41,319 nt of DNA from Thauera terpenica 58Eu (lineage in GTDB: Bacteria > Pseudomonadota > Gammaproteobacteria > Burkholderiales > Rhodocyclaceae), in the NCBI RefSeq assembly GCF_000443165.1, contig NZ_ATJV01000058.1:1-41319 (forward strand). The letters are read 5' to 3'. The notes beneath the pieces are model-generated. The model saw only the letters and a list, made by a program, of their open reading frames with translations. It ran no database searches and had not been told where the DNA came from. Positions 16,280-37,659 of this stretch are shown in pieces; positions within the stretch are counted from its first letter, which is position 1; each line of letters starts with the position of its first letter. The position numbers and the translations under genes were made by a program.

Positions 16280-18652
16280 TCACGGGCTCAGCAAATCATT
16301 TGGATCACCGGTGCCATCGACAGCAGCGCGCTGTGCGCGGTCGAGCAGCACCTCGCGACTCCAAGCGGCCACGGTCGCTGCTGCATCCACCACATGTGCC
16401 CAGGTGCAGCGGTTGGCGAACAGCATGCCAGGGACATCGAAGGTACCGCCGCGGCTGATGTAGCCAAGGGCGCGAGTCTTGGCGGGGCCACTGTCAATGC
16501 GGCGCAGAATGCCAAGCATGGGTTCCGGGCGAGTGTGCGTGACAATCACGCGCGGCAGGCCCGATGGGAACAGTGTGCTAACGGTTACGTCGTCATCGAC
16601 GAATTCAGCTTCGATGGCATCGCGTGGAATACGCAGGCGGCCGGGTTCCAGGACGACGGTGACACAGGCGCACTTGCCCAGCTCAGCAAGGTGCTGCTGT
16701 GCCTTGATTGCCTCGTCCAACTGGTAGGCGCCCAGCGCGATGAGTTGCACCTCGGCATTGGCGGGATTGCCTATCAGATGGGCTGCGCCGTCACTGATCA
16801 GACGTTGCGCCGATTCGGCGTCGAAGCGATTCTCCACGTCGCGCTTGGAGACGATCAGGCAAGCAAGCTGGCCGTGTCCAGCATAGACGTCACGCAGTGC
16901 GGCGACGGCGGTATTGCCATCCACCGGGAACAGCACGCGCGAGGTGTCAGACATTTCGCCCAGCAGGGCTTCACCGATGGTCGGATCTTGGTGCGACTGT
17001 TCGTTCTTCGCATTCTCCCAAGTGTGCGAGGTGACGATAAGCGGCACCGACAGCCAGTCGGCTGGCCGGCCGGCCTGACGCTGGTGGCGGGCGAAGATGA
17101 TTTCCTGCCGTATCAGGCCAAGCATCTTGACCGCGAAGGCCTCGTAGCTGACGACCAGATTCAGTCCGCCTTTGTTGCCGAGTGCTGCCGCAGCCACAGC
17201 TTCCTCGTTGAGCGCGGTGATGATGGCGCCGTGCAAATCCTCAGGCACACCGGCTTCGGGCTCGTTGACGCGGTGCTTGAGCAGCGCCAACGTGCCGCCC
17301 ATTTTGTTGCTGGCCAATTCGTCAGGGTTGCCGATACGCATGCGCATATCGGGATTGGCCTTGGCGAATTCGACAAACCACTGATCCAGAGCCGTCATTG
17401 CACTGCCTTCGCTGCCTGGTGTCTCCCAGCATGGCTCGGGCAGTTTGGGCGCGGCGGGATGGCGATGCGCCATCGGATTCGCGCTCTCCAGCGGACGTTG
17501 TTGGGCGGCATGGCACGCGAAGGCGTCGAGTGCGGCGTTGAGTTCAACAGGCGGAACGAACAGCGCCGCCGCGCTCTCGTTGAACAGCCCGCGCATGGCG
17601 GCATCGGTGTGTGGATTGCCGCTCAGCGGCAGGTTGTGCGCGGCATTGCTGCCTGCACCGGGAAAGCCGAAGCCCTTCTCGGTCTCGGCGATCACGTAAG
17701 GCAGAGGCGCCGGATAGCGCCGATCCGGATCGGCGGCGAAGGCATGCAGCGTGTCCTCGGCTTTGATGATCGCCCAGGCGATCGCGGACGGGTCGCGACC
17801 ATCGACGATCACTGGATCAAAGCCGTTGTGGCGCACGTCTTCAGCCAGCCATTGCGCACCGCCTTCTTGCATGATCTGAGTACGCTGCTCGATGCGGCGG
17901 CCATTGAGAATCATCACCGGCACGGCGAAGCCGCTGTCCTGCGCGCGCCACCAGCGTGGTGCCCAGTCCGGGCCGCGCTGTTCCTCGAAGGCACCGTCGC
18001 TGAGAAAGGCAACCAGCGATTCGCCAGGCAGCGGCATGTGGATGTACTGCAGTTCGGCAAAGCCGAGGTAGCCGCCTTCGGACACGGCGCCGGCAGTGTT
18101 GGGGCCGGCATGGCTGCCCAGCGGCACAGCCGGGAGGCCCTGCGCATTGATGGCATAGGAATAGAAATCAGCGCACAGGCGCGACAGGCCTTCCTCACTG
18201 CGGTCGTAACGGCCCCGCTGCGCGGGCGAGATGTCGCCGGTGAGCGCATTGACGGCTTCGATGGCGGCGACGCAGTGGCCTTGGCCCATGATCCAGCCGC
18301 GCGTGCTGCCGGTGAGCGCGTTGGCGAGCAGGTAGCCGACGAAGGCCTGCACCATGTTCAGCGAGCCACCGGTGTGGCCTTCTGGCGTCAGCTTGAAGTC
18401 CTCCTCAGCCAGTAGCGCGCCGGACAGGTCAATGCGCTTCGCATAGGTCATGTGCGCGACCACGTTCATTGCCACGCAACCCAAGCGGTCGGCGGCAGCA
18501 AGGAAGGTGTAGGCCGTCGCCTCATCGGCAACGCGGCCATCGGCGATCAAACCGGCTACCAATGCATCTACACGTGCGACGGTCTCCTCGTGATGGACGA
18601 TGGGGCCGTGGCCGGCAAACCAGCGCTGGCGAATGATGGAACCGGTGGTCAT
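16280..18652 (-). CDS. xfp: Phosphoketolase family protein (divergent XFP)
   Basis: A 790-aa thiamine-diphosphate enzyme, the family's usual length. Phosphoketolases split xylulose-5-phosphate or fructose-6-phosphate with phosphate into acetyl-phosphate and an aldose phosphate. Visible motifs are EGHTGG (91-96), GQGH (123-126), the ThDP-binding SDG...N segment (218-220 to Asn250), SNKMGG (448-453) and EQSHQDP (551-557). The canonical GDGEAE is changed to SDGAFEE, so this is a divergent branch, sometimes labelled xylulose 5-phosphate 3-epimerase in databases. It is the last gene of the minus-strand cargo, 42 bp after ackA, which would use its product. Confidence 0.88.
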   Translation of the reverse strand: MTTGSIIRQRWFAGHGPIVHHEETVARVDALVAGLIADGRVADEATAYTFLAAADRLGCVAMNVVAHMTYAKRIDLSGALLAEEDFKLTPEGHTGGSLNMVQAFVGYLLANALTGSTRGWIMGQGHCVAAIEAVNALTGDISPAQRGRYDRSEEGLSRLCADFYSYAINAQGLPAVPLGSHAGPNTAGAVSEGGYLGFAELQYIHMPLPGESLVAFLSDGAFEEQRGPDWAPRWWRAQDSGFAVPVMILNGRRIEQRTQIMQEGGAQWLAEDVRHNGFDPVIVDGRDPSAIAWAIIKAEDTLHAFAADPDRRYPAPLPYVIAETEKGFGFPGAGSNAAHNLPLSGNPHTDAAMRGLFNESAAALFVPPVELNAALDAFACHAAQQRPLESANPMAHRHPAAPKLPEPCWETPGSEGSAMTALDQWFVEFAKANPDMRMRIGNPDELASNKMGGTLALLKHRVNEPEAGVPEDLHGAIITALNEEAVAAAALGNKGGLNLVVSYEAFAVKMLGLIRQEIIFARHQRQAGRPADWLSVPLIVTSHTWENAKNEQSHQDPTIGEALLGEMSDTSRVLFPVDGNTAVAALRDVYAGHGQLACLIVSKRDVENRFDAESAQRLISDGAAHLIGNPANAEVQLIALGAYQLDEAIKAQQHLAELGKCACVTVVLEPGRLRIPRDAIEAEFVDDDVTVSTLFPSGLPRVIVTHTRPEPMLGILRRIDSGPAKTRALGYISRGGTFDVPGMLFANRCTWAHVVDAAATVAAWSREVLLDRAQRAAVDGTGDPNDLLSP

Positions 18653-18694
18653 ACGATTGTCCTTCTTTGGTGCCGATGAACCCTGCGTGGGACA

Positions 18695-19903
18695 TCACCC
18701 GGCGATCATGAGTTTCTGCGTACAGCGTGCTGCGATCCATTCCTCGTTGGTGGGCTCCAACGCGACACGCACGCGGCTGCCAGTGGTGGCGATGACGGGG
18801 GCATTAATGGTGTTGGCATCGGCATCGAGCTTGATGCCGAGGAAGGCCAGGTCGCGGCAGACGCGCTCGCGCACGAAGGCGTTGTGCTCACCGACACCGG
18901 CAGTGAACACGAGCAGATCCAGGCCGCCCAGGACTGCAGTCAGCGCGCCGATCTCGCGCACGATACGGCGCACGTAGAGCGCCAGCGCGATGCGGGCGCG
19001 TTCGCCAGCCTCACCGGGATCATTCTCGTGCTTCACCACCACGCGCGGTTCGGCCGAAATCCCGGAAACACCGAGCAGGCCGGACTGGTTGTAGAGCGTG
19101 CTGCCCACTTCTTCCAGCGAAAGTCTTTCGACCTCCATCAAGTAGAGCAAAGCGCCGGGATCGAGCGAGCCCGTGCGGGTGCCCATCATCAGGCCGTCGA
19201 GCGCGGAAAAGCCCATCGTGGTGGCGACGCTTTCCAGGTTCTGCATAGCGCACAAGCTGGCCCCGCTGCCGAGGTGCGCAACAATGGTGCGGCCTCGTGC
19301 CAGATCACCATGGCGCTCGGGCAGAGTGTGGCTCATGTAGTCGTACGAAAGCCCGTGGAAACCGTAGCGGCGCAGACCACGTTCCCAGGCCGAATACGGT
19401 AGCGGCAGGATCTGCTCCACCTTCGGCAGGCTGTGGTGAAAGGCAGTGTCGAAACAGGCCACTTGCACGATGTCCGGGCGCTGCTCCAGCAAAAGTCCCA
19501 TCGCCTTCAGCGGGAACGGTTGGTGCAGTGGGGCCAGCGGAATGTAGCTGCGCAGGTCGTCCAGCATCTGCTGGGTGACAAGGGTGGGGGCCCAATAGCG
19601 GCTCCCACCATGCACTACGCGATGCGCCACGGTGGTTACGCGGCGGCCATCGAGGCGTTTGCTGATGCGTTCCTGAATAAACTGCAGGGCGGCGGTGTGC
19701 GGATGCTCGGCATCCAGTTCCACCGGAAACGGCTCCACGCCGGATTCGCCGAAATTCGGTGCAGGCTCGCCGATACCTTGTACCTTGCCGTTCCAGAGCG
19801 GAGTGCGCGGCAATGGGTCGGCATCAACAGGGAATACTGCGAACTTGATGCTTGAGGAACCGCAGTTGAGCACCAGGATGAGGCTCGGCTGTGAGTTGCT
19901 CAT
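18695..19903 (-). CDS. ackA: Acetate kinase
   Basis: A 402-aa enzyme that makes ATP and acetate from acetyl-phosphate and ADP (reversible). It has all the family motifs: NCGSSSIKF (Asn13), HRVVHGG (Arg95), FDTAFH (Asp152), RYGFHG (His183), HLGSGAS (His210), GTRTGSLDPG (Arg243) and GVGEH, with the C-terminal EPTNEE. GAGAGAG precedes the ATG. Directly upstream of the phosphoketolase gene, it forms a phosphoketolase-acetate kinase ATP-yielding pair. The phosphate acetyltransferase of the same branch point lies in the plus-strand arm at 35901. Confidence 0.96.
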   Translation of the reverse strand: MSNSQPSLILVLNCGSSSIKFAVFPVDADPLPRTPLWNGKVQGIGEPAPNFGESGVEPFPVELDAEHPHTAALQFIQERISKRLDGRRVTTVAHRVVHGGSRYWAPTLVTQQMLDDLRSYIPLAPLHQPFPLKAMGLLLEQRPDIVQVACFDTAFHHSLPKVEQILPLPYSAWERGLRRYGFHGLSYDYMSHTLPERHGDLARGRTIVAHLGSGASLCAMQNLESVATTMGFSALDGLMMGTRTGSLDPGALLYLMEVERLSLEEVGSTLYNQSGLLGVSGISAEPRVVVKHENDPGEAGERARIALALYVRRIVREIGALTAVLGGLDLLVFTAGVGEHNAFVRERVCRDLAFLGIKLDADANTINAPVIATTGSRVRVALEPTNEEWIAARCTQKLMIAG

Positions 19904-19957: not shown

Positions 19958-20419
19958 TCAGTGTTTCCCATAGAACTGCTCCACGAACGATTGCCGGAAA
20001 CTTTGATGACAGGCAAGGCAGCTTTGTTGCGTTTTGGAGAACGCTGTAATCACGGCCTGGCCGTCGCCCCGCTTCGCGGCATCCCCCATGGCGGTCGCGG
20101 CGTCGTGGACGTGGCCATCGAAGTCTCGAAACTTTCCGGCATCAGTGCCAAGCCAGCCGAGGATGCGCATCTTTTCCGAAAGGGGCGGTTCGGCGTGCTT
20201 GGCGATTTTTGGCGCCAACTCGGCGACCAGCGCCCATTCTTCCTTGGAAATCGCGCCAGTGACGGCTTGCATGTCACGGCCAAGCTTCTCCATGACGGTG
20301 CGCAGTGCCATTGGTTTCGTGGCCTCTACGGACTGTGCGCCAAGTCCTGTTGCGGTAATGGCCAAGGCCACGGACAAGGCGACTGTGAAAAGCGAGCGGG
20401 TGTTCAAGGGGTGGCTCAC
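19958..20419 (-). CDS. Class II cytochrome c (c'/c556-like)
   Basis: A 153-aa exported protein. The signal peptide (residues 1-29) has a hydrophobic core LFTVALSVALAITATGLG and an Ala-Gln-Ser cleavage region. The haem-binding CLACH (134-138) lies near the C-terminus, the hallmark of four-helix class II cytochromes. I chose the GTG at 20419 because GGAG lies 6 nt upstream; an ATG at 20431 would add four residues. A periplasmic electron-carrier or gas/metal-sensing role is typical. Its link to the acetyl-phosphate genes is unclear. Confidence 0.85.
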   Translation of the reverse strand: MSHPLNTRSLFTVALSVALAITATGLGAQSVEATKPMALRTVMEKLGRDMQAVTGAISKEEWALVAELAPKIAKHAEPPLSEKMRILGWLGTDAGKFRDFDGHVHDAATAMGDAAKRGDGQAVITAFSKTQQSCLACHQSFRQSFVEQFYGKH

Positions 20420-20481
20420 GGGATTCTCCATGGGGGTCGTTGATGAATGTTTTGCAAACGGGCTGATGGTGGCTGGCATGC

Positions 20482-21681
20482 TCAAAATTCGATGCTCAGG
20501 GCAATCGATCCGAAGGCGTGGCGGCCGATCTGCTGGTCGAACTCGCGGGTTCTCCAGACGCGCATGACTGCAAGCCGCACGCCGTGCCCGGCAACAATCC
20601 ATTGGCTGCTGATGCCGATGGCCGCCTGAACGACCCAGGGCCGACGGCTAACGTGGTGACTGTGGCGAAACAGGTTTCCGTCGAGCGAGAAGTCCCAGGC
20701 GACCGCCTTGGCCTCGAGGTTCAGGAAGACATGCGCGCCGGGTTTGGGCGCCAAGGCCGATTGCGGTGTTGTCGTGCGCAAATCGGCAACCGCTGAAGGT
20801 GGCCGGTTTTCCGCGCCAGGGCGGATTGGATAGCTGCCGAAGTCGTTCGGAATGTTCCAGCCGGCCCGCCATTCCAAGCCGGTGCTGGCCGCGGTTTCAA
20901 TGTTTCCGATCCGCAGGGCATAGCTGCCGATCACGTCGCTGTCCCATCCTGGCTGGACGGCACCCTCCGTGTACGACTTGAACTTGCGCTCCATGGCCAT
21001 CTGGAACGCAGGCTCGTTGCGCAACTGGTTGTCCCAGCCGCGAAATCGCTCGATGCCACGCACCCGATGCACCAGATCCTGCGACTTCTCTGCCAGCGAC
21101 CAGGGGCCGATCACGCCCAGGGTTAGTTCGCGTACGTCCAGCATTTCATAGCTGGCAGCCTGTGGGTGGATTCGGCGATTCCACGCCAGGCCCAGGTAGA
21201 GCAGGCCAGCGTACGGCCGATCGTCGGCAATCAGATCGGTACGCGTCTTGTCCTCGGGTGTGTACATAGACTGGCCAAAGCGAACGACGAGGTTCTGCGA
21301 TGCCGGTTGGTCGCCGGTATCGCGCCAGAAGCCGGGATCGGCCCAGCCGATGAAGCGGGCGTACAAACCAATCGGCTGTGGCAGGCACTCGGGACGGAGC
21401 TCGCCTTGCAGATCACGTGAGACTGCTGTTAGCGCGACACCGTTGGTGTAATTGCGGTCGGAGCCGGTGAATAGATCGTTCTCCAGGCGCAGGGTGCCAC
21501 CCCGCCAGCGCAGGGATTGCCCTGGCGAGCAGGAGGGAGGATCTGCAGAGAGCGAGAAGTCGGAACCGAAAGCAGAAATCGGGCTGAACAATGCACAGGC
21601 AATCAACAAGGTGGCGCACTGCATCGACTGCTGCACCTTGGTGCCGCACAGGCTCCGGCAATACCCGTCGATGCCGATCAT
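20482..21681 (-). CDS. LpxR-like lipid A deacylase family outer-membrane protein
   Basis: A 399-aa protein with an N-terminal signal peptide (hydrophobic MQCATLLIACALFSPISAFG, residues 20-39) and an outer-membrane beta-barrel pattern ending in Phe (SIALSIEF). It carries the LpxR/DUF2219 signature RLENDLFTGSDRNYTNG (residues 65-81). LpxR enzymes remove 3'-O acyl chains from lipid A, changing envelope permeability and immune recognition. The start ATG overlaps the stop of the LOG-family gene (ATGA). Activity is inferred from the family, and some DUF2219 proteins are uncharacterised. Confidence 0.85.
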   Translation of the reverse strand: MIGIDGYCRSLCGTKVQQSMQCATLLIACALFSPISAFGSDFSLSADPPSCSPGQSLRWRGGTLRLENDLFTGSDRNYTNGVALTAVSRDLQGELRPECLPQPIGLYARFIGWADPGFWRDTGDQPASQNLVVRFGQSMYTPEDKTRTDLIADDRPYAGLLYLGLAWNRRIHPQAASYEMLDVRELTLGVIGPWSLAEKSQDLVHRVRGIERFRGWDNQLRNEPAFQMAMERKFKSYTEGAVQPGWDSDVIGSYALRIGNIETAASTGLEWRAGWNIPNDFGSYPIRPGAENRPPSAVADLRTTTPQSALAPKPGAHVFLNLEAKAVAWDFSLDGNLFRHSHHVSRRPWVVQAAIGISSQWIVAGHGVRLAVMRVWRTREFDQQIGRHAFGSIALSIEF

Positions 21682-22544
21682 GTCGCCCCATCGCCTGCTG
21701 CCCTGTTGACGTAAAAGCGTTCGAGGGCACTAACGATTTCCTCGGCTTCGTCTACGCAGGTGAACAAGTCGAGATCGGATGGAGAGACATAGCCTTCGTC
21801 GAGCAGAAGATCAAAATCAACTACGCGACGCCAGAATGCACGGCCGACCAGCACCACCGGAATACGCTGCATCTTTCCGGTCTGGATCAAGGTGAGCACC
21901 TCGAACAGCTCATCGAGCGTTCCATAGCCACCGGGGAAGGACACTAAGCCCTTGGCGTGCAACAAGAAGTGCATCTTGCGCAGCGCGAAATAGTGGAATC
22001 GGAACGCCAAATCCGGGCACATGTAGGGGTTGGGTGCCTGTTCGTGGGGCAGCGTGATGTTGAGGCCAATCGAACGTGCGCCGACCTCGAAAGCACCGCG
22101 GTTGGCGGCCTCCATGATGCCGGGCCCACCCCCGGTGACGACGACGAAATCACGGCGGTTTTGCTGCTGGAAACGCGCCGAAATAAGGCCCGAGAAACGC
22201 CTCGCTTGCTCGTAGTGACGTGCCTGTTCAACCCGGCGATTGGCTCGGGCAAGCTCTTGCCTCAGCCCGACATCCTCCGGAGTGACGCGCGCCAGACGCT
22301 CCAGCGCGCCAAGACGGGCTTCTGCCGTCTCGGCATCGCTCACGCGTGCGCTGCCGAAGACCACTACCGTCGAGCGAATGCCTTGCTCGTGCAGGATGCG
22401 GTCAGGCTTGAGCAGTTCGAGTTGTAGTCGCAGAGGCCGCAGTTCTTCCTGGCCAAGCAGCTCGATGTCTTCGTACGCAAGGCGGTACGTTGGCGACTCG
22501 CGGATGGCGCGCAGGCGTTCATCGAGATCTTCGGCGGGCTTCAT
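21678..22544 (-). CDS. LOG family protein (Rossmann-fold nucleotide monophosphate nucleosidase-like)
   Basis: A 288-aa protein with the LOG signatures GGGPGIMEA (138-146) and PGGYGTLDE (204-212). Family members (LOG, PpnN) cleave nucleoside 5'-monophosphates to base and ribose-5-phosphate. The ~130-residue N-terminal region is helical and charged. I use the ATG at 22544, whose A is shared with the stop of the upstream metallo-hydrolase gene (TGATG); a longer frame to 22712 overlaps that gene by 170 bp. Released ribose-5-phosphate could feed the phosphoketolase through the pentose phosphate pathway; that is speculation. Confidence 0.88.
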   Translation of the reverse strand: MKPAEDLDERLRAIRESPTYRLAYEDIELLGQEELRPLRLQLELLKPDRILHEQGIRSTVVVFGSARVSDAETAEARLGALERLARVTPEDVGLRQELARANRRVEQARHYEQARRFSGLISARFQQQNRRDFVVVTGGGPGIMEAANRGAFEVGARSIGLNITLPHEQAPNPYMCPDLAFRFHYFALRKMHFLLHAKGLVSFPGGYGTLDELFEVLTLIQTGKMQRIPVVLVGRAFWRRVVDFDLLLDEGYVSPSDLDLFTCVDEAEEIVSALERFYVNRAAGDGAT

Positions 22545-23953
22545 CACTCGTGCGCCAGAAAGTCCGGCCAGCGCAGCGCATGACCATACTCGGGCACCGT
22601 GACCTGCCAGCCGAGTTGCTGTTGCAAGAGTTCGGCGAAGGTCTGGGCGGCGGACAGTTCCCCATGCACCACGAAGGTTTGCGCCGGGGGGTGAATAAAA
22701 CCCCGAGCCCAATCCAGCAACGCCTTTTGATCGGCATGCGCCGAGAGGCCGTCCACGCTGTGGATCGCAGCACGTACCGGAATGTCCTCACCGAAGATGC
22801 GCACGCGTTCGGCCCCCTCGATCAGGCGTCGGCCAAGCGTCCCCTGCGCCTGGAAACCGGTAAACAAGATGCTGCATTCCCGGCGCGGCAAGTTGTGGCG
22901 CAGGTGGTGCCGGATACGTCCCGCATCGCACATGCCGCTGGCAGAAATGATGATGACCCCGGAGCGGATCCGCTTCAGCGCCATGGACTCCTCAGCGCTC
23001 GCTGTGAAACTCAGGTATGGGAGGTTCTCGCCGCGCGCGTGCCATCCTGCCAACCGTTTCGCCTGTTCGTCGAACAATTCGAGATGTTCTCGCGTGATGC
23101 GCGTGGCCTGCGTGGCCATTGGCGAATCGACGAATACCTTCGGTTGCCGCAGCCGCCCCTCGCAGGTGAGTCGGTGCAGGTGATAAAGGATTTCCTGGGT
23201 TCGGCCGACCGCGAAGGCCGGCACGATGACATTGCCGCCGCGTTCGAACAATGTCTTTTCGACGATGCCGATCATTTCCTCTTCGGTCGCCGAGAAATCC
23301 TTGTGCTGGCGGTTGCCGTAGGTGGACTCGATGACGAGGATGTCGGCGTCCTCGATGGTTGTCGGGTCGCGCAGTATCGGGCGCGCCGGTTGGCCGAGGT
23401 CGCCACTGAAAACGAGCTTTGTCGGGTAGCCATATTCGGTGACCCAGACCTCGATGATGGCCGACCCAAGAATGTGCCCGGCATCGCGGAAACGGGCGCG
23501 CACCCCGACGCGGGGCGCGAACTCCCGGTCGTATTCGATGCCTCGCACCTGCTGCAAGCAGTCGCTGGCATCCTGCAGCGTATACAGAGGCGGCAGTGCG
23601 TCCTTTCCGCGGAGTCGCTGCGCATTGCGTTTTGCATCGCTCTCCTGGATGTGGGCACTGTCGGGCAGCATCACGCCCAGCAGATCAACCGTGGCGGGAG
23701 TGGCGTAGATGGCCCCCTTGAACCCGGCGCGCGTGAGTTTTGGCAATAGCCCACTATGGTCGATATGGGCATGGGTCAGGAGCACGAAATCAATCGACGC
23801 CGGGTCGAACGGGAATGGCTCATGGTTGCGGGCCGCCGCCGTGCGGCCGCCCTGAACCATGCCGCAATCCACCAGGAAGCGTACGTTGAGCCCTTCCACC
23901 AAGAAACACGACCCGGTGACTTCGCGCGCAGCGCCCAGAAAATGCAGTTTCAT
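22544..23953 (-). CDS. Beta-CASP MBL-fold metallo-hydrolase (RNase/CPSF-like)
   Basis: A 469-aa protein with the metallo-beta-lactamase motif HAHIDH (61-66), downstream ligands in DAGHILGSA and SGDLG, then the beta-CASP domain (VPAFAVGRTQEIL, VDSPMA) and a C-terminal HSVDGLSAHADQ plus VVHGE. This is the layout of bacterial CPSF73/YSH1-like nucleases (RMMBL domain). An RNA-processing role is likely; the target is unknown. It is translationally coupled to the LOG gene. Similar genes are often seen beside universal-stress and phosphoketolase genes, an association I recall but cannot test here. Confidence 0.9.
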   Translation of the reverse strand: MKLHFLGAAREVTGSCFLVEGLNVRFLVDCGMVQGGRTAAARNHEPFPFDPASIDFVLLTHAHIDHSGLLPKLTRAGFKGAIYATPATVDLLGVMLPDSAHIQESDAKRNAQRLRGKDALPPLYTLQDASDCLQQVRGIEYDREFAPRVGVRARFRDAGHILGSAIIEVWVTEYGYPTKLVFSGDLGQPARPILRDPTTIEDADILVIESTYGNRQHKDFSATEEEMIGIVEKTLFERGGNVIVPAFAVGRTQEILYHLHRLTCEGRLRQPKVFVDSPMATQATRITREHLELFDEQAKRLAGWHARGENLPYLSFTASAEESMALKRIRSGVIIISASGMCDAGRIRHHLRHNLPRRECSILFTGFQAQGTLGRRLIEGAERVRIFGEDIPVRAAIHSVDGLSAHADQKALLDWARGFIHPPAQTFVVHGELSAAQTFAELLQQQLGWQVTVPEYGHALRWPDFLAHE

Positions 23954-29790: not shown

Positions 29791-29791
29791 C

Positions 29792-30859: not shown

Positions 30860-31279
30860 TCAGTGCTCGCGCGCGGTCGGCACATTCGCCGCTGACCGGC
30901 GCCAAGCCATGGCCGCTATGCCCGCCCACACCAGCGTGCGCAGCGTCATGGCCGCCGCCGTCCGCCGCTCCCAGGCGCCACCCAGAACCACATGCACTCC
31001 GAAAGCCAGGAACACGAGCGCACTCGCCACCGCGATGGCAACCGCCAACCACATAGCCCAGCGCCGGCGCATCCACAAGCCAACGCCCGCGACGATGTAG
31101 GCGAAACCGGCCAGAAAATTGAACCAGAGCACGAACGGCACATAGTGGCCGGCTGCCTGGCGCGCCGCACCGTCGACAAACAGCACTGCGCCACCTTCCT
31201 GGAGGGTCAGCAGGCCAAATCCGATGGCAATCAAGGAAATCACACGCATCCAGATCGCGCGTCCGCTGTGTGCCGTCAT
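30860..31279 (-). CDS. Small four-helix membrane protein
   Basis: A 139-aa protein with about four hydrophobic helices (WMRVISLIAIGFGLLTL; FVLWFNFLAGFAYIVAGVGLW; WLAVAIAVASALVFLAFGVHV; and a C-terminal LRTLVWAGIAAMAW). I chose the ATG at 31279 because GGGAG lies upstream; a longer frame to 31492 would overlap tetR. I do not recognise the family with certainty. It lies between tetR and the HlyD gene and is probably part of the same transcript, perhaps an accessory subunit of the exporter. Confidence 0.75.
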   Translation of the reverse strand: MTAHSGRAIWMRVISLIAIGFGLLTLQEGGAVLFVDGAARQAAGHYVPFVLWFNFLAGFAYIVAGVGLWMRRRWAMWLAVAIAVASALVFLAFGVHVVLGGAWERRTAAAMTLRTLVWAGIAAMAWRRSAANVPTAREH

Positions 31280-31346
31280 GTTTGTTGCTCCCGATTTATC
31301 GAAGGGTTTGGAGGTCGCAGTCGCGCTTGCGGAGCAGACGGATCCT

Positions 31347-31955
31347 TCATTTGGTGCTTTCGATGCCACGCCGATAGATGGCAAACACGCCCGGCGCGTC
31401 TCGCCGAATGCGACTGACCTTGCCGGCCAGCAGCGACTGCATGACGAGTCCCTGGATCGTGCCGATGAACAACACGGCGGCGGCATCCACATTCAGATCC
31501 GCATCCAACTCGCCCTGCACCTTGCCGGCTTCCATCAAACGGCGCAGGCGCTGTTCGTATTGACGAATCAAGGTCTGCACCATCCGCTTGGCGAGTGTCT
31601 CGCCGGAGCGCTGCAGCTCTCCGAACAGCATGCGCGGCACGCCGGGATGCTTGGCCACGAAGTCGATGTGCGCCATGAACATGGCTTCGAGCGCCGCGGC
31701 AGGTGACTTAGCGCCTTCGGCCGCCTTGTCCACGCGTACCAGCAGACGCTCGCCGACCCAGGTCATCGTTGCCTCCAGGATCGCGTCCTTGTTAGGGAAG
31801 TGACGAAACAACGCGCCCTGCGTCAAACCCATTCGATCGGCGATGGCCGTGGTCGTGATATCGGCCGGGTTTTGCTCCGCTGCCAAGTCGACCACGGCTT
31901 GCACCGTGGCTGCACGCCGCTCTTCGGCGGACAGATATTGAGGACGTTCGCTCAT
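31347..31955 (-). CDS. TetR family transcriptional regulator (CecR-like position)
   Basis: A 202-aa TetR-type repressor. The N-terminal HTH (about residues 12-58) includes ITTTAIADRMGLTQGALFRHFPNKDAIL. The ligand domain holds MFGELQRSGETLAKRMVQTLIRQYEQRLR. It is the first gene of the efflux operon, as E. coli cecR precedes ybhGFSR. An 18-bp palindrome lies at 31972-31989 in its promoter, and a near-identical copy lies before phaC (32258-32275), so it probably controls both divergent arms. The inducer is unknown. Confidence 0.92.
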   Translation of the reverse strand: MSERPQYLSAEERRAATVQAVVDLAAEQNPADITTTAIADRMGLTQGALFRHFPNKDAILEATMTWVGERLLVRVDKAAEGAKSPAAALEAMFMAHIDFVAKHPGVPRMLFGELQRSGETLAKRMVQTLIRQYEQRLRRLMEAGKVQGELDADLNVDAAAVLFIGTIQGLVMQSLLAGKVSRIRRDAPGVFAIYRRGIESTK

Positions 31956-31971
31956 CGCTCAGACTCCATAA

Positions 31972-31989
31972 AGTAAGTGACCTATTACT
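31972..31989 (-). promoter_or_regulatory. TetR operator candidate and promoter of the efflux arm
   Basis: AGTAAGTGACCTATTACT, with 5-bp arms AGTAA/TTACT. On the minus strand the -10-like TAGGAT directly abuts it, and TTGCGT lies 18 bp further upstream as a -35. It is 17 bp before the tetR start codon. Sixteen of 18 bases match the site at 32258-32275 in opposite orientation, so a repressor bound here would cover the transcription start. Confidence 0.7.
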
Positions 31990-32251
31990 ATCCTAACACG
32001 CAAATTAACCATGACGCAAGATCAGAAAGCAGACAGGCTGTGGCGGTAAGGGCCAGCTCTTGTCCATCCGGTGCGCTCAACGACCGAGTTTGATGAATCT
32101 CAAGAAGCGAGCGCGCCATTCAAGCGGTTGACGAGGCATTCGACTGACAAGTCGGCTAGTTCGTTGAGGGTGCGGGAAGTTGATTCGCCGGGGCGCCAGT
32201 GGAAATTCATCCCACATGGCCAGCAAGGCTTGCATCTTTTCCTGCAAGCGA
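31990..32251. other. Non-coding region between the divergent cargo arms
   Basis: About 260 bp between the two operator-like sites, with no supported gene; a 62-residue open frame here has no features. It holds both divergent promoters and may carry further regulator sites. Confidence 0.5.
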
Positions 32252-32257
32252 TAAGAT

Positions 32258-32275
32258 AGTAATAAGTCACTTGCT
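32258..32275 (+). promoter_or_regulatory. TetR operator candidate at the phaC promoter
   Basis: AGTAATAAGTCACTTGCT. The -10-like TAAGAT (32252-32257) directly abuts it on the left, with TTGCAT (32230-32235) 16 bp upstream as a modest -35. It ends 17 bp before the phaC ATG. Geometry and sequence mirror the tetR-promoter site, which points to shared repression by the TetR protein. Confidence 0.7.
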
Positions 32276-32292
32276 AAATGAGATGATCAAAC

Positions 32293-34050
32293 ATGAACCC
32301 CCTTGCCACGTCTGACAAGTCCGTGCCGGCACCATCCGAAATCTTTCACCCCGATGTCCTGGATACGCTGGCGAACGCCTGGCGGGCGCGCGCCACTGGC
32401 GGGCTGTCGCCGGCTGCGGGTTTGCTGGCTTGGTACGACTGGGCGCTGCACCTGAGCCTTTCACCGGGCAAGCAGCGCAGCCTGATCGAAAAAGGGCTGC
32501 ACAAGCAGCAACGCCTGGCGCGCTACGCCGCGCACGCTGCAAGCGCTCAGGGCTGCCCAACGTGCATCGAACCGCTGGAGCAGGATCGGCGCTTCGCGGC
32601 TCCGGCCTGGCAGCAGTGGCCGTTCAACGTCATTCACCAAGGGTTCTTGCTGCAGCAGCAGTGGTGGCACAACGCCACCACCGGCGTGCGTGGCGTGTCG
32701 CGCCATCACGAGAACATGGTCACTTTCGCGGGGCGGCAGTGGCTGGACATGTGGTCGCCTTCGAATTTCGTCTGGACCAATCCGGAAGTGCTGGAAGCCA
32801 TCAGAGCCAGCGGCGGCGCCAACCTGTGGCGCGGCGCCATGAACTTCTTCGACGATGCGCAGCGTCTCGCGCTTGAGGATGCGCCGGCCGGGGTCGAAGG
32901 CTTCGAGGTTGGCAAGGACGTGGCGGTCACGCCGGGAAAGGTGGTGTTCCGCAACCACCTCATCGAGCTGATCCAGTACACACCCACGACGCCCGATGTG
33001 TATGCCGAGCCGGTGCTGATCGTGCCCTCGTGGATCATGAAGTACTACATCCTAGACCTGTCGCCACACAACTCGATGGTGAAGTACCTGGTCGACCAAG
33101 GGCACACGGTGTTCATCATTTCATGGAAGAACCCGACCGTGGTCGATCGTGACCTTGGCCTGGAGGATTACCGGTGGCTGGGGGTCATGGATGCGCTGGA
33201 CACGGTCACGGCCATCGTGCCCGAGCGCAAGGTGCAGGCGGTTGGCTATTGCCTGGGCGGCACCTTGCTGACGATCGCCGCTGCTGCGATGGCGCGCGAC
33301 GGCGATGATCGGCTGCACAGCTTGACGTTGCTGGCGTCGGAGACCGATTTCCGCGAGTCGGGCGAAATCGCACTGTTCATCGACGACAGCCAGTTGGCTT
33401 GGCTAGAAGCCGGGATGTGGGACAAAGGCTATCTCGACGGCAAGCAGATGGCCGCATCTTTCCAGATGCTCAACTCGCGCGACCTGATCTGGTCCCGCCG
33501 CGTGCGCGAGTACCTGCTGGGCGAACGCCAGCAGTTCAATGACCTGATGGCCTGGAACGCCGACGTGACGCGCATGCCATATCGCATGCACAGCGAGTAC
33601 CTGCGGCGCCTGTATCTGAACAACGATCTGGCCGAGGGGCGCTACCAGGTCGGCGGACGGCCGGTGGCGATCGCCGACATCGAAGCGCCGATGCTCATCG
33701 TCGGCACGGTGCGCGATCACGTCGCCCCTTGGCCATCCGTCTACAAGATGCACCTGCTCAGTGATGCGGAGCTGACCTTCGTCCTCACCAGTGGCGGGCA
33801 CAACGCCGGCGTGGTCAGCGAGCCGGGGCACCCGCGGCGCAGCTACCAGATGGCGACTCGCAGCACCGGCGCCCGCTACGTTGATCCACAAACATGGCGC
33901 GCCGAAACCCCACTGAACGAGGGCTCCTGGTGGCCGGCCTGGCAGCAATGGCTGGCGCGGCGCTCGACCGGGCGTGTGACGCCGCCTGCGATGAGCGGCA
34001 CGCAAACACCGCTTGGTGATGCGCCGGGAACCTATGTGGCAATGCGATGA
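32293..34050 (+). CDS. phaC: Class I poly(3-hydroxyalkanoate) synthase
   Basis: A 585-aa PHA synthase. It polymerises (R)-3-hydroxybutyryl-CoA into polyhydroxybutyrate on the granule surface. It has the lipase-like box GYCLGG with nucleophile Cys320, Asp475 in VRDHVAPW and His503 in GGHNAGVV, a complete catalytic triad. The N-terminal domain shows DPRF-like EQDRRFAAPAWQQWPFNVIHQGFLL (91-120 region). The length is typical of class I enzymes. The ATG lies 17 bp after the operator-like palindrome. It heads the plus-strand arm and is followed by a phasin and PhaB. Confidence 0.95.
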   Translation: MNPLATSDKSVPAPSEIFHPDVLDTLANAWRARATGGLSPAAGLLAWYDWALHLSLSPGKQRSLIEKGLHKQQRLARYAAHAASAQGCPTCIEPLEQDRRFAAPAWQQWPFNVIHQGFLLQQQWWHNATTGVRGVSRHHENMVTFAGRQWLDMWSPSNFVWTNPEVLEAIRASGGANLWRGAMNFFDDAQRLALEDAPAGVEGFEVGKDVAVTPGKVVFRNHLIELIQYTPTTPDVYAEPVLIVPSWIMKYYILDLSPHNSMVKYLVDQGHTVFIISWKNPTVVDRDLGLEDYRWLGVMDALDTVTAIVPERKVQAVGYCLGGTLLTIAAAAMARDGDDRLHSLTLLASETDFRESGEIALFIDDSQLAWLEAGMWDKGYLDGKQMAASFQMLNSRDLIWSRRVREYLLGERQQFNDLMAWNADVTRMPYRMHSEYLRRLYLNNDLAEGRYQVGGRPVAIADIEAPMLIVGTVRDHVAPWPSVYKMHLLSDAELTFVLTSGGHNAGVVSEPGHPRRSYQMATRSTGARYVDPQTWRAETPLNEGSWWPAWQQWLARRSTGRVTPPAMSGTQTPLGDAPGTYVAMR

Positions 34051-34158
34051 CATGACGCCCCGAGGCCTCAATTCAGCCACCCGACTTCGACCGGGACACT
34101 CCTGCGGGATGGCCCATACCCGCCCTAATGGGGCATCTCATGACCGTGGAGCAATGAA

Positions 34159-34602
34159 ATGAACAGTGAACTGCCCATCCAACTTTACAAGGCCAATGCC
34201 GAACTGCAGCTTCAGATCACCCGTTTGCTGCAAGAAAGCGGCCATCACTGGCTGGAAGCCATGCAACAGCTCAGCGCTGGCAGCATGCTGGAGACCACCT
34301 CGCGCATCCAGAACCTCCAACAGGCGGCCGACTGGCAGGCGCTTGCAACCTTGCCGACCGAGGTGTTCTGGCGCCTGTCCCAGGGCCGCATGGGCGATAC
34401 CCAAGCGGTCGGCCAGGCCGCCGCGAAAAGCCAGGCAGTCTTTGCCGATGGCTTGCGCCAATCGCTCTCGGCCTGGCAGGCATCCGTCTCCGAGGCATTC
34501 GGCGCCAGTGGTGACACAGCCTCTTTTGCCCAGCTTTGCCAGCAATGGGCCCAGCCCTGGACCGCGCCATCCACTGCGCCCCAGGGCAAAGCCAAGAAGT
34601 GA
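34159..34602 (+). CDS. Phasin-like PHA granule-associated protein
   Basis: A 147-aa amphipathic helical protein (YKANAELQLQITRLLQES, then WLEAMQQL and AVGQAAAKSQAVFADGLRQSL), the pattern of polyhydroxyalkanoate granule phasins, with a Lys-rich end. Phasins coat the granule and set its size and number. The ATG at 34159 has GGAG at 8 nt spacing. It lies 108 bp after phaC and 10 bp before phaB, as in many pha clusters. The family call rests on pattern and context. Confidence 0.85.
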   Translation: MNSELPIQLYKANAELQLQITRLLQESGHHWLEAMQQLSAGSMLETTSRIQNLQQAADWQALATLPTEVFWRLSQGRMGDTQAVGQAAAKSQAVFADGLRQSLSAWQASVSEAFGASGDTASFAQLCQQWAQPWTAPSTAPQGKAKK

Positions 34603-34612
34603 AGAGGTTGCC

Positions 34613-35359
34613 ATGAGCATCCCTCAACGAACGGCCTTGGTGACCGGAGGCAACCGGGGACTGGGCGCTGCGATCGCCCGTTCCCTGCACGATGCCGGCC
34701 ACCGCGTGATCGTCACGCATACGCCAGGCAACCCCACGATTGACCAGTGGCAGCACACGCAGGCGGCGCAGGGCTACGGATTTGCGGCCTACGGGGTGGA
34801 TGTGTCCGACTACGAGTCGGCGCAGGAGCTGGCGCGGCGCATTCATGTCGATGGACATCGTATTGACATCCTGGTGAACAACGCCGGTATCACCCGCGAC
34901 GCGACCTTGCGCAAGATGGACAAGGTCGGCTGGGATGCCGTACTGCGTACCAACCTGGATTCCATGTTCAACGTCACCAAGCCGTTCATCGATCCGATGG
35001 TCGAGCGTGGCTGGGGTCGCATCATCAACGTCTCGTCGATCAATGGCAGCAAGGGCCAGTTCGGGCAGACCAACTATTCGGCGGCCAAGGCCGGGGTCCA
35101 TGGCTTTACCAAGGCGCTGGCGCTGGAAGTGGCGCGCAAGGGCGTGACGGTCAATACCGTCTCGCCGGGTTATCTGGCCACCGAGATGGTGATGGCGGTG
35201 CGTGAGGATGTGCGCCAGAAGATCATCGATGCGATTCCGGTCGGGCGCCTCGGTCAGCCAGCCGAGATTGCGGAGCTTGTCGCCTTCATCGCCAGCGAAG
35301 CCGCCGCCTTCATGACTGGTAGCAACGTCGCCATGAATGGTGGCCAGCACATGTATTGA
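34613..35359 (+). CDS. phaB: Acetoacetyl-CoA reductase
   Basis: A 248-aa SDR enzyme of the PhaB type, which reduces acetoacetyl-CoA to (R)-3-hydroxybutyryl-CoA, usually with NADPH. It has the nucleotide-binding TGGNRGLG (11-18), NNAGITRDATLRKM (89-102), the catalytic Ser142-Tyr155-Lys159 set and the C-terminal GGQHMY seen in PhaB proteins. GAAGAGG precedes the ATG. It supplies monomer to the synthase encoded two genes upstream. No thiolase gene (phaA) is in the window. Confidence 0.94.
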   Translation: MSIPQRTALVTGGNRGLGAAIARSLHDAGHRVIVTHTPGNPTIDQWQHTQAAQGYGFAAYGVDVSDYESAQELARRIHVDGHRIDILVNNAGITRDATLRKMDKVGWDAVLRTNLDSMFNVTKPFIDPMVERGWGRIINVSSINGSKGQFGQTNYSAAKAGVHGFTKALALEVARKGVTVNTVSPGYLATEMVMAVREDVRQKIIDAIPVGRLGQPAEIAELVAFIASEAAAFMTGSNVAMNGGQHMY

Positions 35360-35439
35360 GCGGCCATGGAATCCGCGCCACAAGCAATCAATTTCTGACG
35401 CTGCAATCCCCAAGACCAATCGACTTCGGACGGAATGCC

Positions 35440-35904
35440 ATGTATTCACGACTCCTGGTGCCGCTGGACGGCAGTCCCACATCGCTTCTGGCCCTCGATC
35501 ATGCCCGCGCTTTGGCCCATCTGAGTGGCGGCACGGTGATCCTGCTGCATGTCGTCGAGCCGACCCGACACAGCACGGGTTTCGAGCGTCCGAAGGTCTA
35601 CATCGAGGACGTCCGTCCGCGCTTCATGGCGGCTGGACAGGCCTTGCTGGATGAGGCCGCCAACGGATTGCGTCAGGACGGACTTGCCGTGGAGACGGTG
35701 CTTCTTGAAAGCGGTGCCGAGCGCGTGTCGGAACAAATCGCCAAGCAGGCCGAGGCAAGTGCGTGTGATCTGGTCATCCTGGGCACCCACGGGCGTCGCG
35801 GCGTGGATCGGCTGCTGCTCGGCAGCGACGCGGAGCAGATCGCGCGCATCGCGCCGGTTCCCGTGATGCTGGTACGCCAACCGCACCGCAAAGGAATCAC
35901 ATGA
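35440..35904 (+). CDS. Universal stress protein (UspA family)
   Basis: A 154-aa single-domain Usp. It has an N-terminal LLVPLDGSPTSLLALDHA and the ATP-binding end GTHGRRG (115-121) through LLLGSDAEQIAR, the G-2X-G-9X-G-S pattern of ATP-binding Usps. The last 4 nt overlap the phosphate acetyltransferase start (ATGA), so the two are made together. Usp proteins appear under energy or oxygen limitation, which fits a phosphoketolase/acetyl-phosphate/PHB module as a low-energy response; that link is inference. Confidence 0.93.
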   Translation: MYSRLLVPLDGSPTSLLALDHARALAHLSGGTVILLHVVEPTRHSTGFERPKVYIEDVRPRFMAAGQALLDEAANGLRQDGLAVETVLLESGAERVSEQIAKQAEASACDLVILGTHGRRGVDRLLLGSDAEQIARIAPVPVMLVRQPHRKGIT

Positions 35905-36857
35905 ACGAACAAACTTCTGAACACTTTAGTGCCGTTGCTCCCAGTGGTGTCGCGCGTCTCATCGCCCATGTCAAAGCCATGGCCCCGGTGCGCACTGCCG
36001 TCGTGCACCCCTGCGACGCGCTCAGCCTGGGCGGTGCACTGGACGCACGCGATGCCGGCATCATCACGCCAGTGCTGGTGGCGCCGCTTGCCAAGCTGCG
36101 CGCCGTTGCAGCCGATTTCGGGCTGGATCTGGGGGACAGTGAGATCGTTGATGTGCCGCACAGCCACGCTGCCGCGGCCACCGCCGCCCGGCTGGCTGGC
36201 AAGGGCGAGGTGCAGGCACTGATGAAAGGCAGCTTGCACAGCGACGAGTACCTGGGCGCCATTCTGGCCCCCGAGGCTGGCCTGCGCACCGAGCGCCGCT
36301 TGACGCACTGCTACATCATGCAGACGGCCAGCTACCCCCGGCCCTTCATCCTCACCGACGCCGCCATCAACATCGCTCCGTCGCTTGAGGACAAGGCCGA
36401 TATCGTGCGCAACGCCATCGATCTGGCACACGTCATCGGTGTGCCCGAACCCAAAGTCGCCATCCTGGCGGCGGTGGAAACGGTGAACCCTCGCATGCGC
36501 TCGACGCTGGATGCGGCAGCCCTGTGCAAGATGGCCGATCGCGGCCAGATCACAGGCGGCCTAGTCGACGGGCCGCTGGCCTTCGACAACGCAGTCTCGC
36601 CCGAGGCCGCGCAAGTCAAGGGCATCCGGTCGGCCGTGGCAGGGCAGGCTGACGTGCTTGTTGTGCCTGATCTGGAAAGCGGCAACATGCTGGCCAAGCA
36701 GCTTGAGTTCCTGGGCGGTGCCGAGAGCGCCGGCATCGTCATGGGCGCGCGTGTGCCCATCGTGCTCACCAGCCGCTCCGACTCGCGCACCACGCGCCTG
36801 GCATCCTGCGCCATTGCACTCATGCTGGCCGAACGCAGGCGCGCCGCGCCGCCGTGA
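35901..36857 (+). CDS. pta: Phosphate acetyltransferase (PTA/PTB family)
   Basis: A 318-aa enzyme of the short PTA_PTB type: HPCDALSLGGAL, LMKGSLHSDEYLGAIL, GLRTERRLTHCYIMQTASYPRPFILTDAAIN-type core, ITGGLVDGPLAFDNAVS and the C-terminal DSRTTRLASCAIAL. It converts acetyl-phosphate and CoA to acetyl-CoA and phosphate. It lacks the MaoC-like hydratase domain of the bifunctional form. Butyryl-phosphate use cannot be excluded. It joins the phosphoketolase product to the PHB pathway and is coupled to the Usp gene (ATGA). Confidence 0.9.
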   Translation: MNEQTSEHFSAVAPSGVARLIAHVKAMAPVRTAVVHPCDALSLGGALDARDAGIITPVLVAPLAKLRAVAADFGLDLGDSEIVDVPHSHAAAATAARLAGKGEVQALMKGSLHSDEYLGAILAPEAGLRTERRLTHCYIMQTASYPRPFILTDAAINIAPSLEDKADIVRNAIDLAHVIGVPEPKVAILAAVETVNPRMRSTLDAAALCKMADRGQITGGLVDGPLAFDNAVSPEAAQVKGIRSAVAGQADVLVVPDLESGNMLAKQLEFLGGAESAGIVMGARVPIVLTSRSDSRTTRLASCAIALMLAERRRAAPP

Positions 36858-36906
36858 GGCGCTTGCGCCACCGATTCAACCCGCATTTCAAAATGGAGTC
36901 TTCACC

Positions 36907-37659
36907 ATGAAATACAGCTTCAAGGGCAACAGCGCCATCGTCAGCGGCGGTGGCTCCGGCATCGGCGAGGCGACGGCCCGTCTGCTGGCCGCCAACGGCG
37001 TGCAGGTTGTTGTCTCCGACATCGACCTTGAGGCCGCACGGCGCGTGGTGGAGGCCATCGACGCCGCCGGCGGCCGCGCCGTGGCGCACGCCGGCAACAC
37101 CGCCCGTCCCGACGACGCACAAGCAGCGGTGCAGTGCGCACTCGAACATTTCGGCGCCCTGGATCTGGCATTCAACAATGCCGGTATCAGCGGTACGCTC
37201 AAACCTGCGGGAGAACTGGCGGCGGACGAGTGGCAGCACGTCATCGACGTCAATCTCTCTGGTGTTCAATATGCCCTGCGGGCGCAGATTCCGGCCATGC
37301 TGGCCGCCGGTGGTGGTGCCATCGTCAACATGTCGTCCATCCTCGGCCTGGTTGGCAGCGCCACCGCCCCAGCCTACGTCGCCGCCAAGCACGGTGTCAC
37401 CGGCCTCACGCGTTCAGCGGCGCTGGCCTACGCGGCGCAGGGCATCCGCATCAACTCCATCCACCCGGGCTATATCGATACGCCGCTGCTCAAAGTGTTG
37501 GACGAGGCGACGTTGGCGGCGCTCAAGGGCATGCACGCAATCGGGCGCCTGGGCCAGTCCGAAGAGATCGCCCACGCTGCCTGCTTCCTGCTCTCCGAGG
37601 GCGCCAACTACATGTGCGGCAGCGCGCTGGTGGTCGATGGCGGCTATACCGCCGCTTGA
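36907..37659 (+). CDS. SDR-family dehydrogenase (possible 3-hydroxybutyrate dehydrogenase)
   Basis: A 250-aa short-chain dehydrogenase: SGGGSGIG (13-20), NNAG (90-93), catalytic Ser144-Tyr157-Lys161 and the end VVDGGYTAA. Asp38 at the end of the second strand (VVVSDID) predicts NAD(H) rather than NADP(H), unlike most PhaB proteins. GGAG lies before the ATG. As the last gene of the PHB arm it could be a 3-hydroxybutyrate dehydrogenase, a second reductase or an unrelated alcohol dehydrogenase. The substrate is not decided by sequence. Confidence 0.85.
   Translation: MKYSFKGNSAIVSGGGSGIGEATARLLAANGVQVVVSDIDLEAARRVVEAIDAAGGRAVAHAGNTARPDDAQAAVQCALEHFGALDLAFNNAGISGTLKPAGELAADEWQHVIDVNLSGVQYALRAQIPAMLAAGGGAIVNMSSILGLVGSATAPAYVAAKHGVTGLTRSAALAYAAQGIRINSIHPGYIDTPLLKVLDEATLAALKGMHAIGRLGQSEEIAHAACFLLSEGANYMCGSALVVDGGYTAA

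Follow-up and report, generated by a model that had tools for sequence, protein, structure and literature searches.

Why would a conjugative element carry a phosphoketolase-family enzyme, an acetate kinase and genes for polyhydroxybutyrate (PHB) synthesis beside a drug-type exporter? The question is raised by a 41,319-base contig of Thauera terpenica 58Eu (NZ_ATJV01000058.1, contig C58), which was analyzed as a whole and is hereafter called the window; the draft genome of the host comprises 4.15 Mb in 135 contigs. Between the relaxase gene and a LysR/traR-type gene of an integrative and conjugative element (ICE), the window holds two divergent strings of genes, designated here as the cargo. 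The original prediction regarded these genes as a single mobile module that moves sugar-phosphate carbon into storage or ATP. Our analysis suggests a somewhat different answer, to which we give a probability of roughly 0.5: the cargo may be a portable low-energy salvage kit that leads RNA or pentose phosphate to acetyl phosphate, and from there to ATP or PHB. Its purpose would then be to keep cells alive when energy is limiting, possibly where oxygen is low or toxicants are present, and not to store carbon in bulk.

The borders of the cargo were located by a blastn comparison with an element of Delftia (L197), in which a different cargo lies between the relaxase gene and the LysR, EexN and TraG genes. 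Because homology stops at 16177 and restarts at 39921 (70% identity), we placed the whole cargo, a block of about 24 kb, at 16178–39920, and the extent first predicted for the module (16280–37659) was too short. The left border is an RlxS-type relaxase gene (DUF3363; 13798–16179, plus strand; PF11843, 2.3e-145), whose product matches the RlxS model NF041267 at 6e-195 with 650 bits, under the cut-off of 850. The right border is a LysR-type gene at the traR place (39920–40846, plus strand; PF00126/PF03466). All the genes named in the original prediction were confirmed by Pfam in their places between these borders.

The minus-strand string begins with the gene for a TetR-family regulator (31347–31955; PF00440, 3.6e-10). 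It is followed by a small hydrophobic reading frame (30860–31492) that would encode a membrane protein of about 139 residues from an internal Met; this frame has no Pfam match and recurs in related loci. Next come the exporter genes, namely an HlyD membrane fusion protein (29792–30832), which belongs to the PRK03598 family with 482 bits where the NF002939/PRK03598 model requires 393, an ABC ATPase with two nucleotide-binding domains (28015–29832; two stretches of PF00005), two ABC-2 permeases (26849–28018 and 25726–26844; PF12698) and an outer-membrane efflux protein, OEP (24191–25798; PF02321, 8.3e-42). Further along are a metallo-beta-lactamase (MBL)/beta-CASP ribonuclease-like protein (22544–23953), which has Beta-Casp and RMMBL domains and matches the RNase TTHA0252 at 1.5e-83, and a LOG-family nucleoside 5′-monophosphate phosphoribohydrolase-like protein (21678–22712), which scores above the TIGR00730 cut-off, matches solved LOG chains in the PDB and contains the PGGYGTLDE motif. 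The string continues with an outer-membrane protein of the LpxR lipid A deacylase family (20482–21681; PF09982, 3.7e-84) and a cytochrome c′-like protein with a CxxCH motif (19958–20602; PF01322, 30.3 bits against 26.5). It ends with the acetate/propionate kinase AckA (18695–19903; PF00871, 6.8e-101; above the TIGR00016 cut-off) and Xfp, a divergent phosphoketolase-family enzyme (16280–18652; PF03894, 1.7e-40; PF09364, 1.1e-11). The actual starts of the OEP, LOG and cytochrome genes lie further inside the frames given.

The plus-strand string opens with phaC (32293–34050), which encodes a class I-like polyhydroxyalkanoate (PHA) synthase (PF07167, 5.3e-57; PDB 9knj, 3.9e-106). This protein has a PhaC_N domain, and its Cys, Asp and His residues, which we take to be the catalytic triad, align with those of 9knj. 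Judged from its sequence, PhaC is a divergent member of the class I synthases, scoring 524.4 bits against TIGR01838 and missing the cut-off of 622.65. The following genes encode a phasin (34159–34602; PF09361, barely above its cut-off with 25.5 against 24.9 bits), the acetoacetyl-CoA reductase PhaB (34607–35359 with an approximate start, inside the frame 34166–35359; TIGR01829, 352 bits against 302), a universal stress protein, Usp (35356–35904; PF00582, 9.6e-29), and the phosphate acetyltransferase Pta (35901–36857; NF008852/PRK11890, 478 bits against 413). Behind them lie a short-chain dehydrogenase/reductase (SDR) gene (36658–37659; PF13561) and an alpha/beta-hydrolase gene (frame 37134–39725, actual start about 37.7 kb; PF12697, 6.8e-07). 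For Usp and SDR, too, the actual starts are further in.

The gene order xfp-ackA...tetR...phaC-phasin-phaB-usp-pta, which the original prediction proposed to look for elsewhere, was found in three other genomes on the same backbone; because of this repetition, it is not a product of chance. Acidovorax benzenivorans D2M1 (G399, L118) and Cupriavidus gilardii CCUG 38401 (G400) have the full order, xfp included, from the relaxase to LysR. A metagenome-assembled genome of Burkholderiaceae (G416) has it from the relaxase to pta and part of the hydrolase gene, several genes appearing as split hits and the stretch ending before LysR. The SDR DNA has a match in A. benzenivorans and none in G400 or G416. 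DNA identity to the window is 88.6% in the backbone (8300–16179), 85.6% in the minus arm and 83.9% in the plus arm for C. gilardii, and 89.6%, 85.1% and 83.8%, respectively, for G416. Because the divergence of arms and backbone is similar in these two elements, the arms appear to have moved together since the elements split. The A. benzenivorans element is a mosaic, in which the plus arm is 99.8% identical to the window, LOG 80.8%, ackA 87.8% and the compared backbone 88.9%. We take the divergent LOG and ackA patches to indicate that the cargos of related ICEs have recombined.

The two strings also appear to share a regulatory element. The gap between tetR and phaC contains a 29-nt inverted repeat, one arm on the tetR side (31967–31995) and the other on the phaC side (32252–32280); the arms are 83% complementary and 256 nt apart. 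We aligned ten tetR-phaC intergenic regions, namely those of the window, G416 and eight loci that were found through the exporter and in which tetR adjoins a phaC with 85% identity or more (L005, L007, L011, L012, L013, L015, L017 and L035). Both operator-like copies are present in all ten, and conservation averages 0.88 within each arm against 0.66 for the stretch between the arms. The number of independent cases is below ten because L005 is nearly the window itself and L011–L013 are alike. A 14-mer operator core has four matches in the window with up to three mismatches against 0.53 expected, and two of these are the inverted-repeat copies; this count is partly circular, the pattern having been derived from two of its four sites, and we put the weight on the ten-locus alignment. 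We infer that TetR binds both sites, which would place both strings under one repressor. Six of the ten loci have no xfp nearby, and the genomes of L015, L017 and L035 have none at E ≤1e-20; therefore, the twin-site switch is independent of xfp.

A third operator-like 14-mer, with three mismatches, lies at 39760–39773 upstream of the LysR/traR gene. Given this copy, it is a possibility that the cargo regulator also touches transfer genes. In Rhodopseudomonas faecalis (L035, 8405–19699), the PHB arm has its own tetR (17630) divergent from phaC and lies beside a second tetR-exporter set.

Nearly the same functions occur in a second arrangement, with another gene order, at five loci (G401, G403, G407, G064 and a second locus of G416). 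Identity to the window is 72–75% for phaB, 70–73% for pta, 74–75% for ackA, 71–77% for usp and 73–74% for xfp; it is 59–64% for SDR, 51–59% for phaC, 33–45% for the phasin, 36–37% for an LpxR relative and 27–44% for the exporter genes. Thus, the metabolic set is better conserved than the exporter, at 70–77% against 27–44%. These loci also hold a phosphoribosyl pyrophosphate (PRPP)-synthetase-like gene, the RNase and a thymidine-phosphorylase-like gene, and in G401 Pfam confirmed LpxR, AckA, Pta, a PhaB-like SDR and phosphoribosyl domains. In a midpoint-rooted tree, the Xfps of the ICEs, of four second-arrangement loci and of G267 form one group with a support of 100/100.

To which genes is xfp usually coupled? 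Relatives of the window Xfp form a rare clade: searches at the ranks of order, class and phylum found it in 6 of 399, 10 of 369 and 13 of 398 genomes, respectively, the host being counted each time. The 44 loci compared comprise 25 loci in 24 genomes from these overlapping rank searches, 14 loci in those 12 of 19 genomes, picked for having the exporter, that gave a match, which is a biased sample, and 5 of 15 plasmid records. Matches under 40% query cover were dropped (30% for exporter-locus and gene-order counts). The loci are not independent (the Xfp proteins of G064 and G407, for example, are identical), and the right flank of G412 is short. Within 6 kb of xfp, we observed the RNase in 32 of the 44 loci, LOG or a thymidine-phosphorylase-like gene in 31, both in 30, and AckA in 21. 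The density near xfp over that at 8–18 kb, calculated with a pseudocount of 0.5, is 17.8-fold for the RNase, 41.6 for LOG, 14.8 for the phosphorylase, 13 for the PRPP-synthetase-like gene and 58.3 for AckA; P-type ATPases (8.3-fold) and LysR genes (6.2-fold) are enriched as well.

Individual loci illustrate these associations. In 12 loci xfp lies beside the RNase, with LOG in 11 of them; five of the 12 are in genomes named as Pseudomonas or Stutzerimonas. Three alpha-proteobacterial plasmids have a set of PRPP-synthetase-like gene, xfp, RNase and phosphorylase. An Acidovorax plasmid (L085, 2462–38340) has a related relaxase, then copper genes, AckA, Xfp, a type II glyceraldehyde-3-phosphate dehydrogenase, a PRPP-synthetase-like gene, the phosphorylase, the RNase and polyphosphate kinase 2; its phosphorylase scores 479 bits against the AMP phosphorylase model, under the cut-off of 535. 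An Alteromonas plasmid has AckA and xfp only. Because it is the RNase, the nucleotide-splitting enzymes and AckA that are enriched near Xfp, with no clear enrichment of pta, phaB or phaC, PHB synthesis seems to be just one sink of two.

The following course of events can be proposed. An inducer, a ligand also handled by the exporter, would release TetR, and the exporter, RNase, LOG, AckA and Xfp would rise together with PhaC, PhaB and Pta. The RNase and LOG would free ribose 5-phosphate from RNA and nucleotides, the pentose pathway being another possible origin of ribose phosphate, and host Rpi and Rpe would convert it to xylulose 5-phosphate, which Xfp would cleave into acetyl phosphate and glyceraldehyde 3-phosphate. 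A cell short of energy could use AckA to gain ATP from this acetyl phosphate, and a surplus of reductant would instead favour its conversion to stored PHB by Pta, a host thiolase, PhaB and PhaC. Because the cargo has no thiolase gene, PhaA must be supplied by the host, whose genome has 11 thiolase matches, nine of them strong. A search of the host genome at E ≤1e-50 gave no Xfp besides that of the cargo, and Xfp is thus the step that the cargo adds, being the sole checked enzyme without a second host copy.

Several observations weigh against the cargo being such a kit, and they concern the host, the regulation, the coupling of the two arms elsewhere, and Xfp itself. Outside the cargo, the host has three further PhaC genes, and AckA with an adjoining Pta on contig C80. 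No strict FNR box was found in the window or in the fetched stretches of the ICEs and the second arrangement. At five of the 44 Xfp loci (G188, G151, G657, G903 and G936), there was no match to the RNase, LOG, phosphorylase or AckA. The PHB genes are not the commonest neighbours of Xfp, this place being held by the RNase, LOG or the phosphorylase, and AckA: phaC lies within 18 kb of xfp in 9 of the 44 loci (four ICE and five second-arrangement loci), and the density ratios of phaC (1.9), usp (2.2), pta (0.4) and phaB (0) give no clear enrichment. Conversely, when genome contigs were scanned with the ABC ATPase, phaC occurred in the flanks of 10 of the best 80 of 568 exporter loci, with flanks of up to 10 kb and many short contigs. 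Two of these ten (L024 and L029) have a phaC of 60–63% identity, the others being the eight aligned above. AckA and Usp accompany the rest only in L005 and L007 among the best 80, where xfp lies beyond the flank. In L008, L009, L011–L013, L065 and L066, the fetched flank shows the RNase-LOG pair behind the exporter but no xfp, and therefore the place of this pair in the putative operon need not be due to xfp. The single module originally predicted thus holds for the ICE lineage, where gene order, similar divergence, the twin sites and the second arrangement argue for it; outside these lineages, the arms occur independently in most relatives, an outcome that the original prediction had itself named as a refutation. 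Because the arms are mostly apart on the wide scale, we limit the single-unit view to these lineages.

FNR/Anr control of the cargo was considered and rejected. The window has five matches to the FNR pattern, all with one mismatch, against 2.0 expected, and 7 of 100 shuffled sequences reach as many. One of them, TTGATGAATCTCAA at 32090, has a similar sequence in L005, L007 and G416 and none in the six other aligned loci, and may be taken as a weak hint. The other relatives give some sign of such control: the 44 Xfp loci taken together (1.55 Mb) have 10 strict FNR boxes against 2.0 expected from base composition, and four of the ten are sited upstream of either xfp or the accompanying RNase gene (G112, G188, G151 and G415). 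A side observation was made on host contig L195 (8122–9731), where a further phaC is preceded by an RNase-like gene, 55% identical to the window MBL gene, and has a Usp-like gene in its vicinity.

As an alternative, the cargo could be a stress island centred on the exporter, which we consider unlikely. A hydrophobic toxicant would be removed by TetR-controlled ABC efflux; the genes for PHB, LpxR, Usp and AckA/Xfp would be passengers that buffer envelope and energy stress, and a flux from Xfp to PHB would be incidental. The gene counts at the best 80 of the 568 exporter loci fit this idea, with HlyD in 80, the permeases in 76 and 71, TetR in 49 and OEP in 42 against phaC in 10, usp in 2 and ackA in 2, but the exporter counts are high by construction because the ATPase was the query. 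In L008, L009, L065 and L066, the exporter genes are followed by those for MBL, LOG, LpxR and cytochrome c, with neither xfp nor phaC, and two of the hosts bear benzene-derived names. However, the operator-like sites stand at both the tetR and the phaC sides in all ten loci that have the pair, and the second arrangement retains phaB, ackA, pta, usp and xfp better than the exporter. The exporter genes themselves resemble a known system. The PRK03598 model represents Escherichia coli YbhG, and the YbhGFSR system likewise has a TetR gene by HlyD, a double ABC ATPase and two permeases. In contrast to YbhGFSR, the window exporter genes are divergent from phaC and lead on to the genes for OEP, RNase, LOG, LpxR, cytochrome and, in the ICEs, to ackA-xfp.

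A different objection starts from Xfp. The protein has both phosphoketolase domains above the Pfam cut-offs (XFP, 139.1 bits; XFP_N, 44.7 bits), and solved phosphoketolases in the PDB match it at 2.7e-21 at best. It falls far below the NCBIfam phosphoketolase models, with 124.7 bits at best against cut-offs of at least 777. In all 43 Xfps examined (the fragmentary G416b was left out of the tree and the motif counts, which thus cover 43 of 44 rows), the QDHN segment of the solved enzyme, known as the QN loop, reads N[ASG]KN, the next residue being E in 29 and Q in 14, and QDHNG occurs in none; all 19 members of an alignment with 3ai7 read N[ASG]KNE, and the window Xfp has NAKNE in its place. 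Xfp relatives are labelled xylulose 5-phosphate 3-epimerase in 14 of the 15 plasmid records, and the solved chain nearest to Pta is a phosphate butyryltransferase (PDB 7vg9). Thus, Xfp might be a different thiamine diphosphate (ThDP)-dependent enzyme of ketose phosphates, whose substrate is perhaps a sugar phosphate derived from nucleotides, or which uses another acceptor; in that case, the link to acetyl phosphate would fail, and AckA and Pta would use other acyl phosphates. We regard this as rather improbable. The other active-site motifs examined are retained: in 19 of 19 aligned members, the catalytic His residues aligned with 64, 97, 142, 320 and 553 of 3ai7 are kept, as are the ThDP-binding Asp, the Lys, PDE and YExF. 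Among the 43 Xfps, plain patterns gave GSH, SHQD and NPDE in 43, GQGH in 42, GHTG in 41, AHNLP in 40 and SYEAF in 39, the misses in these counts not being aligned. Phosphoketolase and AckA are a usual pairing, in agreement with AckA within 6 kb in 21 of the 44 loci, and the remaining plasmid record reads phosphoketolase. The original name phosphoketolase thus needs correction in that the enzyme belongs to a divergent clade. Phosphoketolase activity with acetyl phosphate as the product is probable for the clade, but because the clade is divergent, its loop changed and its scores far under the NCBIfam cut-offs, the acetyl-phosphate output is inferred; the acceptor may differ from that of known phosphoketolases.

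That the cargo is a chance collection in a hotspot that gathers unrelated genes without joint function is very improbable: the rlxS-traR gap is a known accessory place according to the main text of PMC6210171, L197 holds other cargo there and SDR is missing from two of the three relatives, but the order is kept at 83.8–99.8% DNA identity per arm in the related elements, the operator-like sites are shared, and a second arrangement of the same functions exists.

The backbone to the left of the cargo contains the maintenance block of Tn4371-family ICEs, and its DNA is homologous to that of L197, G399, G400 and G416. The block comprises a ParB-like partition protein (4235–6295; PF02195), the replication initiator RepA (RPA; 10226–11428; PF10134, 4.2e-87), ParA (11613–12320; PF13614 and PF01656), a TraF-like S26 signal peptidase (12564–13724, with the actual start further in; PF10502), a DUF2840 gene that overlaps the latter (12598–13131; PF11000), all on the plus strand, and RlxS. 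The left end of the window (86–1341, minus strand) has two further genes identified by Pfam, one IrrE-like (Peptidase_M78) and the other for an Xre-type HTH protein. The accessory genes sit exactly between rlxS and the traR place, as in Tn4371-family ICEs. We conclude from its gene content that the cargo block is the accessory load of a Tn4371-type ICE. The integrase and trb genes are not on the window contig, which stops soon after the LysR gene. Because TrbI is found on host contigs C69 and C74 and the host genome has 20 integrase-domain matches, the ICE appears to be split over several contigs. In C. gilardii (G400), the left side of the element is adjoined by an integrase gene next to one for GMP synthase, and on the right the cargo is followed by a TrbE-type gene; the A. 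benzenivorans contig carries a TrbI gene. The window has no tRNA gene and no Rfam family at the gathering score.

The left 16 kb of the window matches 202 plasmid records, of which 173 are typed as conjugative and two cover at least 80% of the query. The cargo DNA matches 83 plasmid records, and none of them covers 80% of the cargo. Two plasmids considered as relatives were discarded: a Caballeronia plasmid has a similar phbB with the other cargo genes missing, and a Sphingopyxis plasmid has the exporter, but with arsenic genes instead.

The low-oxygen-activated (lxa) locus of Burkholderia cenocepacia, which has an FNR-type site at its promoters, resembles the cargo in gene content. As far as the main text of PMC6127331 goes, it encodes PhbB, a phosphate acetyl/butyryl transferase, a metallo-beta-lactamase protein, universal stress proteins and a cytochrome c, and counterparts of these are present in the cargo by gene description. 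The same text, in which the word phosphoketolase is absent, indicates a FixK/CRP-type regulator for lxa, whereas the window cargo has no strict FNR box. On a Burkholderia aenigmatica plasmid, a stretch of 17 kb holds phbB, AckA, HlyD, an ABC permease, TolC, phosphate acetyltransferase and again AckA. The likeness to these two systems suggests a low-energy or low-oxygen role by analogy. In Mycobacterium massiliense, a conserved locus with Usp, xylulose-5-phosphate phosphoketolase and alcohol dehydrogenase was tied by its authors to anaerobic or hypoxic survival (PMC4263727); unlike the cargo, it is actinobacterial and accompanied by DevR.

Tn4371-family ICEs, such as CMGI-2 and CMGI-3 of Cupriavidus metallidurans CH34, have the same RepA/ParA/ParB/RlxS block and the rlxS-traR accessory place, and the main texts of PMC2864759 and PMC6210171 describe cargo that includes toluene, hydrogenase and CO2 fixation genes. 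No phosphoketolase, acetate kinase or phosphate acetyltransferase appears in the main text of PMC2864759, and no phosphoketolase in that of PMC6210171; nothing joining Tn4371 with phosphoketolase was found in the open-licence literature. The PHB genes of Pseudomonas extremaustralis are on a horizontally acquired genomic island (PMC4041789), for which the title and the opening of the abstract name no Xfp, AckA or ICE. As far as these sources go, ICEs with metabolic cargo and PHB genes on islands are thus already known. The combination of genes in the cargo, the twin operator-like sites, and an Xfp clade with partners on the nucleotide side were not met in the portions of the open-licence literature searched.

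A wider proposal, which we put forward tentatively and hold to be on the doubtful side, is that the Xfp clade forms the core of an undescribed route from RNA to energy, in which the beta-CASP RNase would yield nucleoside monophosphates, LOG would convert these to ribose phosphate (a task that might instead fall to an AMP phosphorylase of archaeal type and its PRPP-synthetase-like partner), Xfp with its remodelled QN loop would form acetyl phosphate, and AckA would make ATP. The ICE lineage would have fused this route with PHB synthesis and the exporter under one TetR, and it would spread between genera; if this is true, bacteria could gain a starvation programme by conjugation. In any case, the analysis singles out an uncharacterised clade of the phosphoketolase family with a fixed change in an active-site loop and with the RNase, a nucleotide-splitting enzyme and AckA as frequent partners. 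If the cargo is indeed a salvage kit, a low-energy survival programme consisting of nucleic-acid salvage, substrate-level ATP formation, carbon storage and efflux would move by conjugation as one regulated block, as genes for degradation and resistance do.

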